Below are positions 54,485-62,149 of a DNA stretch of 64,000 nucleotides, in pieces; the stretch's first letter is position 1, and each line of letters begins with the position of its first letter. The position numbers were made by a program, and so were the translations under genes. The notes beneath the pieces were generated by a model. That model saw nothing but the letters and a program-made list of their open reading frames with translations, ran no database searches and was not told where the DNA came from. The stretch lies in assembly GCF_013344475.1 (NCBI RefSeq), contig NZ_JABUOU010000004.1, forward strand, positions 147,286-211,285, written 5' to 3'. This stretch comes from Martelella limonii. GTDB lineage: Bacteria > Pseudomonadota > Alphaproteobacteria > Rhizobiales > Rhizobiaceae.

Positions 54485-54553
54485 CGTTCCGTGTCCGGAC
54501 CACACGGAGCCCGCTCGACTTTGGGTCCATATCTCTTTGGGAGGAGGAGTAAC

Positions 54554-55504
54554 ATGCAGAAATCGAAATGGATGACTGCCGCCGCAATCGGCGTGCTGAT
54601 CTTCGCGGGCAACGCATTTGCCCAGGAAAAGAAGGTCGTGGCGGTCTCGATCCCCGCCGCCGACCATGGCTGGACGGCAGGCGTCGTCTACCACGCCGAA
54701 CAGGCCGCAGCCGAAATCAACGAGGCCTTCGATGATGTCGAGGTCGTGGTCAAGACCTCGCCGTCGGCGACTGCCCAGGTCAGCGCGCTTGAAGACCTCG
54801 CGGCTACCCGTGATCTCGCGGCGCTCGTGATCCTGCCCTACACCTCGGAAGAGCTGACGCTGCCTGTGCAGGACGTCAAGGATGGCGGCACCTTCATCAC
54901 CGTCGTCGACCGCGGCCTCAACGATCCGTCGATCCAGGATCTTTACGTCGCCGGCGACAACATCGCCGTCGGCCGCAACACAGCGAAGTTCCTCGTCGAA
55001 CAGATGGACGGCAAGGGCGATGTCGTGGTGCTGCGCGGCATTCCGACGGTCATCGATGACGAGCGCATCGAGGGCTTCCAGCAGGGCCTCGAAGGCACCG
55101 ACATGAAGATCCTCGACATCCAGTATGCCAACTGGAATGCCGATGAAGCCTTCACGCTGATGCAGGATTATCTCGCCAAATATCCGCATATCGACGCGGT
55201 CTGGGCCAATGACGACGACATGCTGCTCGGTGTTCTGGAAGCCATCAAGGAATCTGGCCGCACCGAGATCCAGTATGCGCTCGGCGGCAACGGCATGAAG
55301 GAAATCATCGAGAAGGTGATGGCCGAAGACGCAATGACCCCGGTCGAAACCCCCTACCCGCCGTCCATGATCAAGACGGCAATCTACATGACGGTTGCGA
55401 ACCTCGTCGGCCAGGCGCCGGTGCGCGGCACCGTCAAGCTCGACGCGCCGCTGATCACCAAGGAAAACGCCGAGGAATTCTACTTCCCGGATTCACCCTT
55501 CTGA
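54554..55504 (+). CDS. Sugar-type ABC transporter periplasmic binding protein
   Basis: A 316-residue type-1 (RbsB-like) binding protein with signal peptide MQKSKWMTAAAIGVLIFAGNAFA. It has VVAVSIPAADHGWTAGVVYHAEQAA, EDLAATRDLAALVILPYTSEEL, FITVVDRG and WANDDDMLLGVLEAI. The ATG at 54554 has GGAGGAG just upstream. The ligand is likely a sugar, polyol or sugar acid. The neighbouring dehydrogenases handle short hydroxy acids or alcohols, so a C4-C5 compound is plausible. Hairpins follow before the DJ-1 gene. Confidence 0.9.
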   Translation: MQKSKWMTAAAIGVLIFAGNAFAQEKKVVAVSIPAADHGWTAGVVYHAEQAAAEINEAFDDVEVVVKTSPSATAQVSALEDLAATRDLAALVILPYTSEELTLPVQDVKDGGTFITVVDRGLNDPSIQDLYVAGDNIAVGRNTAKFLVEQMDGKGDVVVLRGIPTVIDDERIEGFQQGLEGTDMKILDIQYANWNADEAFTLMQDYLAKYPHIDAVWANDDDMLLGVLEAIKESGRTEIQYALGGNGMKEIIEKVMAEDAMTPVETPYPPSMIKTAIYMTVANLVGQAPVRGTVKLDAPLITKENAEEFYFPDSPF

Positions 55505-60709: not shown

Positions 60710-61358
60710 CTGTAGATGACTCACGGCAAAACCCTTCAGCCTCCCATCGACGCGGCAAGCGGAGCGGTTTCGGCAAAAGTCAGTCAGGAACATCGGAGAT
60801 CTGGAAGGGAAAATCGGCGGGAGAAGGCCTGTTACCCTTTTTTACCGGGCATTCGGCCTTCTCCCTTTGAGTTTCAGTCAGCGCACCTTTCCTGAAACTC
60901 TTGTCCGTCGGAGGCATGGACGCTGCGCCGCCCGGCAGGGCCCGGGCTCGGCCGCAACATCGTCATGTAAATTAGCACAGCCGAATTCAATTTCGAATCA
61001 CTCGCCCCCGCAAATCCCGTTTTTGCGCCGGAATCACGGATATTTGACCGGGTCGCGCGCAGAACTGCGGTCAGGAAAGGCGGTCACTTTCTTGACCGGC
61101 GGAAAGAAACTCGAACGCTCAGACCTCCCGGGGAGAAGCGATTTCGGTCGAAACGGACCAGATTCATGGAGAGACAGCAGAACGCGCAGCGGCTGAAAGA
61201 GCAAATTTTAAGCACGGCCGCCGCGAAAACAGGCCAAAAGCACGAGCCCTGCATTTTTTGCATACGGGCAATGCTTCTACCCCCCTGCCTCCGTGCGATC
61301 GGGCTCGATATATATCCAATCAACAACAGCGCACCGAACACCAGAAAGGAGCCGCACC
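60710..61358. other. Non-coding stretch before DUF1127, with an 11-bp inverted repeat
   Basis: About 650 bases without a convincing gene. At 60819-60829 and 60855-60865 are GGGAGAAGGCC and GGCCTTCTCCC, a perfect inverted repeat with a 25-base spacer containing CCCTTTTTTACCGGG. A frame at 60867-61196 (plus) and one at 61084-61341 (minus) have unusual, Arg/Ser-rich composition and no good start sites, so they are not called. The 3' end (61300-61358) should hold the promoter of the DUF1127/small-RNA locus; GATATATAT at 61309-61317 is a possible -10 element. Confidence 0.5.
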
Positions 61359-61502
61359 ATGAACATCAGCCGTTCGTTCAACAACTGGCTCAAGTACCGC
61401 GAAACCGTCGCCGAACTTGGCCGCATGAGCAATCGCGAACTTTCCGACCTCGGTATCAGCCGTTCTGATATCCGTCGCGTCGCCCGCAAGGAAGCGATCT
61501 GA
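61359..61502 (+). CDS. DUF1127 small Arg-rich protein (CcaF1-like)
   Basis: A 47-residue protein (MNISRSFNNWLKYRETVAEL...RMSNRELSDLGISRSDIRRVA) with the full DUF1127 signature. Such small Arg-rich proteins occur widely in alphaproteobacteria. In Rhodobacter sphaeroides, CcaF1 of this family precedes the stress-induced CcsR small RNAs and is known to bind RNA. The ATG at 61359 has AAAGGAG seven bases upstream. Three hairpins with CCTCCTCCC loops start ten bases after its stop, the same arrangement as ccaF1-CcsR. Confidence 0.9.
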   Translation: MNISRSFNNWLKYRETVAELGRMSNRELSDLGISRSDIRRVARKEAI

Positions 61503-61512
61503 CAACAAGTTT

Positions 61513-61632
61513 TCGAAGCGCGCTATCCTCCTCCCGGCGCTCTTCGATTGGATCGGCGATCCTCCTCCTCCTCCCAAATCGCCGATCTCCACGATGACGC
61601 CCACCGGATCCTCCTCCCCCGGTGGGCGTTTT
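61513..61632 (+). ncRNA. Tandem CCUCCUCCC-loop small RNAs (cuckoo/CcsR family)
   Basis: Three successive hairpins show the anti-Shine-Dalgarno motif in their loops. Hairpin 1 (61513-61547) pairs TCGAAGCGCGC with GCGCTCTTCGA; CCTCCTCCC is at 61527-61535. Hairpin 2 (61551-61587) has a perfect 10-bp stem GATCGGCGAT/ATCGCCGATC; its loop has the motif extended to five CCT units (61561-61575). Hairpin 3 (61597-61629) has an 11-bp stem ACGCCCACCGG/CCGGTGGGCGT, motif at 61610-61618, and ends in TTTT, so it doubles as terminator. This is the 'cuckoo' RNA pattern known downstream of DUF1127 genes. Processing from the mRNA is likely. Confidence 0.85.
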
Positions 61633-61759
61633 CATGTGCGCATGTCACGCACCCGACGTTCGACCCCGCGCACCGCCTCTCACCATCATTGATGCAATGC
61701 CAAAAGACCGCACCTTCGAAAAAAGGTCGGTCGTCGCTGCCGTGCGCGCTGAAAAATCT

Positions 61760-62149
61760 TCAGGGGTAGAGGTAGAGCCGGTCCCACGAATCGCGCGGGA
61801 TCTCATCGCCGAGCTTGAAGCTGAAGGATTTGATCGCGATCTCATCCCTGGCGGCAACGCAGCGGTAGGACAGCTTGTACCAACGCCCGCCTGATCTCAC
61901 CGCCGCACCCGGCGCTTCCATCGTCGTGCCGGTGACAGTGGTCGGCGCAAATGTATAGGCAATCACCTTGTCCGGGCTCATATCCTTGCGCGCATCGTCG
62001 ATGCGGCCTAGCGCCTCGACATCGCAGCGCTGCTCGAGCTTTTCTTCCGGATCCAGCTGATCGAGTTCGTCTTCGATCCGCTGACTGATGGCGAGTGCGG
62101 GGGCAGCGGTCAGTGCCAGCGCGATGAGCGCCATGTAAGCCGTCTTCAA
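61760..62149 (-). CDS. DUF930 secreted protein
   Basis: A 129-residue protein with signal peptide MKTAYMALIALALTAAPALA and the DUF930 pattern: LDPEEKLEQRCDVEALGRIDDARKDMSPDKVIAYTF, GAAVRSGGRWYKLSYRCVA and FSFKLGDEIPRDSW. Two cysteines (QRC and YRC) could pair in the periplasm. Function unknown; the family is largely rhizobial. It is divergent from the oligopeptidase gene and converges on the small-RNA locus. Confidence 0.8.
   Translation of the reverse strand: MKTAYMALIALALTAAPALAISQRIEDELDQLDPEEKLEQRCDVEALGRIDDARKDMSPDKVIAYTFAPTTVTGTTMEAPGAAVRSGGRWYKLSYRCVAARDEIAIKSFSFKLGDEIPRDSWDRLYLYP

Follow-up and report, generated by a model that had tools for sequence, protein, structure and literature searches.

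The window (the whole 64-kb stretch of Martelella limonii DNA that was analysed) contains a short gene for a DUF1127 protein of 47 aa, the stop codon of which is followed, after a gap of 5 nt, by an RNA of the αr14 family, to which NfeR1 of S. meliloti also belongs. The protein sequence, which was scanned with the first Met left out, passed the Pfam cut-off for PF06568. Reports on DUF1127 proteins describe both RNA binding (CcaF1) and a partnership with the sensor kinase PhoR (PMC12501420, in the part concerned with these proteins). The positions of these and the other features are listed in Table 1. The putA gene lies upstream of the locus and an S9 peptidase gene lies downstream. The latter shows 78-84% identity to genes of Martelella species, and the genome position of the cluster is not kept: in an exact-motif scan of 80 loci around the relatives of the peptidase gene, the cluster was found in one (M. 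mediterranea IOP_24), and an Rfam search of 12 of these loci detected αr14 in M. mediterranea IOP_24 only.

Table 1. Positions of the features in the window (position 1 is its first letter)
Feature	Position	Strand	Basis
LysR-type box TGCATTTTTTGCAT, predicted LsrB/VtlR site	61250-61263	+	form TGCA-N6-GCAT, as at S. meliloti nfeR1 (PMC10746234, nfeR1 promoter part)
Putative promoter core: CTGCCTC (61285-61291), 17 nt, TATAT (61309-61313)	61285-61313	+	aligned promoters
DUF1127 small protein gene, 47 aa	61359-61502	+	PF06568, 58.4 bits (cut-off, 23.3)
αr14 RNA	61508-61634	+	Rfam RF02344, 95.7 bits (cut-off, 58.8), E = 2.8e-16
Hairpin 1, loop with CCTCCTCCC at 61527-61535	61513-61547	+	motif search, fold
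Hairpin 2, loop with (CCT)4CCC at 61561-61575	61550-61588	+	fold, repeat count
Hairpin 3, CCTCCTCCC at 61610-61618, T run to 61632	61596-61630	+	terminator-like; predicted termination
DUF930 gene	61760-62149	-	PF06059; convergent with αr14 terminator
Periplasmic sugar-binding-protein gene (ATG, 54554), candidate target	54537-55504	+	Peripla_BP_4, 144.5 bits; Shine-Dalgarno TTTGGGAGGAGGAG at 54537-54556

The arrangement given in the original prediction, namely a DUF1127 gene and then three hairpins with CCTCCTCCC in the loops, was confirmed by the PF06568 match, the motif search, and the fold. On the + strand, CCTCCTCCC starts at 61527, 61567, and 61610; the window has four matches, three of which are at the αr14 locus (100 shuffles: mean, 0.51; largest, 3), and the fourth (- strand, 54539-54547) is the complement of the Shine-Dalgarno sequence of the sugar-binding-protein gene. 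The fold of the αr14 strand has three hairpins and no others, and in every loop the motif is left single-stranded (-58.0 kcal/mol, against -32.9 (sd 3.5) for shuffled sequences; z = -7.1, with 0 of 200 as low), and the three hairpins were unchanged in the fold of the predicted longer transcript (61320-61634). The third hairpin, which had been read as the terminator, leads into TTTT and resembles an intrinsic terminator, at which transcription would end. The middle loop is extended by a long CCT repeat as claimed, but the repeat is (CCT)4CCC and not (CCT)5, and it is uncommon rather than unique (7 of 66 αr14 copies, including the window copy).

These 66 copies, found above the cut-off in 25 genomes, were obtained from a survey of 41 genomes (the genome of the window and 40 relatives). 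Three hairpins with CCTCC in each loop were found in 65 of them (40/40 in the genus; the exception was the copy of G018), and the stems carry paired changes; the view that the stems differ while the loops are kept thus holds in related genomes as well. Covariation was counted with 24 of the 40 same-genus sequences, since hairpin 1 was displaced when all 40 were aligned; the 11 copies with DUF1127 genes on two sides and five copies of G004 and G007 were left out, and the structure was taken from the folds of single members. In this set, 12 of the 35 pairs showed changes on both sides and 97.9% of the cells were paired, against at most 49.1% in slid versions, while the number of further pair types (24) did not exceed that in shuffles (25.9). 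Helix 3 was nearly invariant and added little. The loop sequence is held by selection. Within the genus, loops 1 and 2 hold 2 to 4 CCT units, and the last loop holds two in 39/40 copies and one in 1/40.

A DUF1127 gene was present on the same strand near 55 of the 66 copies (40/40 copies in the 13 same-genus genomes and 15/26 in the other genomes, where a search of flanks of about 1 kb with four queries from the genome of the window may miss some). In the 40 same-genus layouts, the gene is directly before αr14 in 16 (as in the window), after it in 13 (one per genome), and on both sides in 11. In the genome of the window (4.54 Mb, 40 contigs), three αr14 matches exceed the cut-off, and there are five DUF1127 genes. 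Of these genes, four adjoin αr14, and the fifth (contig C40) was found without αr14 and without a match to the box pattern described below.

The box TGCATTTTTTGCAT is located 45 nt before TATAT, upstream of the DUF1127 gene and not directly of the RNA, and has the same form as the NfeR1-type LsrB site. It is the sole match of the box-N45-TATAT pattern in the window (0 in shuffles), and no box was found between the DUF1127 stop codon and αr14. In the genus, TGCR-N6-GCAT occurs exactly 45 nt before TAT upstream of 40/40 αr14 copies, and in these aligned promoters the CT of the CTGCCTC position and TAT are invariant (40/40); transcription would start near 61320. Outside the genus, the box with TAT at 45 nt was found in 5/26 αr14 copies. 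At the genome level, box-N45-TATAT has 5 sites in the genome of the window and 74 in the 13 same-genus genomes (0 for the reversed pattern in those 13), and there are 11 matches in the other 28 genomes (reversed control, 1). Among the 74 sites, 39 are before an αr14 match, 22 are just behind one, and 13 are elsewhere (one per genome); the 61 linked sites were those on the same strand within 1 kb, with αr14 matches below the cut-off counted. Three of the 13 outlying sites were inspected, and each is followed by the gene of a small protein (about 50 aa; 68-75% identity between genomes), which is weakly DUF1127-like (38%, E = 1.7e-4, against four subjects) and gave no Pfam or NCBIfam match. In the genome of the window, the outlying site is the fifth (C39, about 95.9 kb), and the small protein behind it (55 aa) has weak similarity to DUF1127 and no Pfam or NCBIfam match. 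With a looser spacing of 38-56 nt, eight matches were obtained in this genome (two being one site read twice; reversed control, 1), and no Rfam match was found around either of the two sites that were added to the five at 45 nt. The third αr14 copy (C39) has a DUF1127 gene on either side (1154-1297 and 1645-1785 of the excerpt), and each of the two genes is preceded by a separate box with the 45-nt spacing.

We take RS0680a, a Rhodobacter transcript, to be the later CcsR. RS0680a was described with two stem-loops (PMC3927594, which in 2011 described the family with these loops; the family was reviewed in PMC7143759), and in the account of CcsR in PMC10253847, four RNAs (CcsR1-4) follow ccaF1 of Rhodobacter sphaeroides on one transcript from an RpoHI/RpoHII promoter. 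The order of the parts, a DUF1127 gene and then anti-Shine-Dalgarno RNA, equals that of ccaF1-CcsR as given there and in the relevant part of PMC8625941, and on this ground our locus might be seen as a stress locus of the same type, driven by RpoH, with the RNA matured by RNase E together with the DUF1127 protein. We consider such a locus type quite improbable, although maturation of the RNA in that way may still apply. The window DUF1127 gene is followed by a single αr14 match, that is, one RNA with three hairpins instead of a cluster of four RNAs; the family matched is αr14; and the promoter is marked by the LysR-type box and CTGCCTC-N17-TATAT. CcsR was rejected as the family name on the same three points. 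Hence, from the cuckoo/CcsR-type assignment made earlier, the cuckoo part (an anti-Shine-Dalgarno RNA behind DUF1127) is retained, but the family is αr14/NfeR1 and not CcsR. Given the one three-hairpin RNA and the LysR-type box in 40/40 same-genus copies, heat-shock control of the window locus does not appear to be indicated. The layout, with a short DUF1127 gene, the 5-nt gap, and the RNA, is that of the CIN1 locus with its cuckoo RNAs as defined in PMC10253847, where the link of DUF1127 to cuckoo RNAs is stated with reference to Reinkensmeier and Giegerich 2015.

The closest known system is αr14/NfeR1 of S. meliloti (RF02344), with which the locus shares the three hairpins, CCUCCUCCC loops, variable stems, the terminator-like last hairpin, and the LsrB-type box upstream. 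At nfeR1, LsrB activates through TGCA-N6-GCAT at -72 to -57, upstream of a promoter of the sigma-70 type, and NtrC represses; the NtrC motif (TGC-N11-GCA) is upstream of the LsrB site and limited to plant symbionts (PMC10746234, part on this promoter). The window copy differs in its position, a DUF1127 gene standing between the box and the RNA, in the (CCT)4CCC of the middle loop, and in the NtrC-like TGC-N11-GCA, which was absent from the window promoter (61101-61330) and present in 10/40 same-genus promoters. By position, another αr14 copy of the same genome (L001) matches NfeR1 more closely, with the box directly before the RNA.

LsrB, or VtlR, is named as the probable regulator of the window promoter by gene order. 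In the genome of the window, a LysR-family gene is flanked on one side by an oxidoreductase gene, taken to be trxB, and on the other by two αr15 (AbcR) RNAs, and the same order (trxB and AbcR RNAs) is given for Agrobacterium lsrB/vtlR in the locus description of PMC7486931. For the LysR gene, no NCBIfam model reached the cut-off among the best 25 of 55 listed. DUF1127 small genes are targets in the published regulon too: VtlR activates three of them in Brucella (PMC12595884, section on VtlR targets). The regulon parts of these papers name AbcR RNAs, VrsA, and small proteins as targets and do not mention αr14 behind DUF1127. The conserved box could instead belong to another LysR-type or an unrelated regulator, considering that LsrB is deduced from the gene order and a short motif and that the VtlR motifs quoted in PMC12595884 look different (CAATGCAGCCATGCA). 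We regard this as unlikely, because the box matches the nfeR1 site in form and distance, DUF1127 genes are under VtlR control in Brucella, and the AbcR1 promoter of the genome of the window, which is without the exact box pattern, has CATGGCAGCCATGCA, matching 13 of the 15 letters of the quoted VtlR motif (by eye).

Since the box precedes the DUF1127 gene in the window, the protein and the αr14 RNA probably share one transcript driven by LsrB. We consider the following scheme likely as a whole. The LsrB/VtlR-type promoter (61250-61313) would give a single transcript of about 315 nt, the first part of which would be the mRNA for the DUF1127 protein and the 3' part the αr14 RNA, with the third hairpin of this RNA as the terminator. 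The RNA would probably be freed by cleavage near the DUF1127 stop codon, as the only upstream box found is before the DUF1127 gene. Through its C-rich loops, the RNA may then bind other mRNAs, mainly those of transport genes, at GGAGG-rich Shine-Dalgarno regions and block the entry of ribosomes, as shown for NfeR1 of S. meliloti, the loops of which bring about mRNA silencing (PMC10746234, target section).

The short distance between stop codon and RNA with no box in between, together with the terminator-like third hairpin, would also suit a role of the hairpins mainly in cis, in which they form the 3' end of the DUF1127 mRNA and stabilise it, with no separate trans-acting RNA from the window copy. 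Only one of the six αr14 copies of S. meliloti was detectably transcribed according to the αr14 part of PMC7143759, which agrees with such a role, and so the window copy might be silent. We doubt a mainly cis role, however: three hairpins sharing one unpaired motif are more than a plain terminator requires, the motif is kept in 65/66 copies while the stems change, and the pairing with the Shine-Dalgarno sequence of the DUF1127 gene itself is weak (-6.7 to -8.7 kcal/mol). Self-pairing of αr14 with the Shine-Dalgarno sequence of its own gene was rejected for the same weakness.

As for the trans-acting role in the scheme above, the candidate target in the window is the sugar-binding-protein gene (ATG at 54554). 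Loop 2 pairs over 13 nt with its Shine-Dalgarno sequence TTTGGGAGGAGGAG at -27.1 kcal/mol, and loops 1 and 3 pair at -23.0 and -21.6 kcal/mol, respectively (energies that ignore accessibility). In the background for loop 2 (5,116 stretches), the 1% point was -21.2 and the five best were below -28, some of which were presumably the complement of the loop itself. GGAGGAGGA is kept in four homologues of the gene with 66-71% identity (pairing, -25.0 to -25.8), and ten more distant homologues have GGGAGGA, a shorter match, some of their start codons being uncertain. Selection for a strong Shine-Dalgarno sequence alone could produce this conservation. The first two NfeR1 targets tested in S. meliloti encode periplasmic components of ABC transport (PMC10746234, target section). 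A scan of the genome with GGAGGAGG-N3-9-ATG gave 41 matches (reversed control, 3), two of which (C39) are the complement of αr14 loops. The first 30 of the 41 loci were taken, and nine reading frames were submitted to Pfam, seven of which had a family. Six of the seven are plausible gene starts (nitronate monooxygenase, amidohydrolase, ABC ATPase, PHB regulator, CutC, and sugar-binding protein); the glutamine synthetase match was rejected because the ATG is internal. The scan is to be taken as a lead and not as a test of targets. Conserved targeting of ntrB, with the start region of which NfeR1 pairs, was unsupported: the gene after dusB/nifR3, which was read as ntrB by its position, has only AAAGGAAAG before the ATG.

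DUF1127 genes beside such RNAs have already been described (the CIN1 locus and ccaF1-CcsR), and in kind the present finding is nothing unusual. Its contribution lies in the promoter rule seen across the genus, together with the shared transcript to which this rule would point. The rule joins three reported facts, namely that LsrB activates NfeR1, that VtlR activates DUF1127 genes, and that DUF1127 is found beside cuckoo RNAs, and the joined rule holds in 40/40 same-genus copies. No paper in our literature search mentions NfeR1 together with DUF1127; as this search did not cover the cuckoo paper of 2015, the link may be in print. The search on Martelella and small RNA gave nothing relevant among the matches listed. 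If the shared transcript is real, phenotypes assigned to the DUF1127 protein may partly belong to the RNA on the same transcript, and vice versa, and mutants would have to separate the effects of the protein from those of the RNA.

We tentatively extend the scheme to the genus, in a form that we hold to be possible but not yet probable. In Martelella, one LysR regulator of the LsrB/VtlR type might govern a closed regulon that consists of αr14 RNAs and short DUF1127 proteins, both often encoded by a single transcript with dual function (the DUF1127 frame and the αr14 3' part), and a lengthening of the CCT repeat that affects loops 1 and 2 but spares the terminator loop might tune the length of pairing with the long GGAGGAGGA Shine-Dalgarno sequences of sugar-transport genes.

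A tandem array was observed in one relative, G007 (contig C54, 1-1019; also at the start of C48), with units of 445 bp (2.3 copies, 98% matches), each unit consisting of a box, a DUF1127 gene, and a short C-rich RNA with two hairpins. The array is at the contig ends, and the true copy number may be higher.
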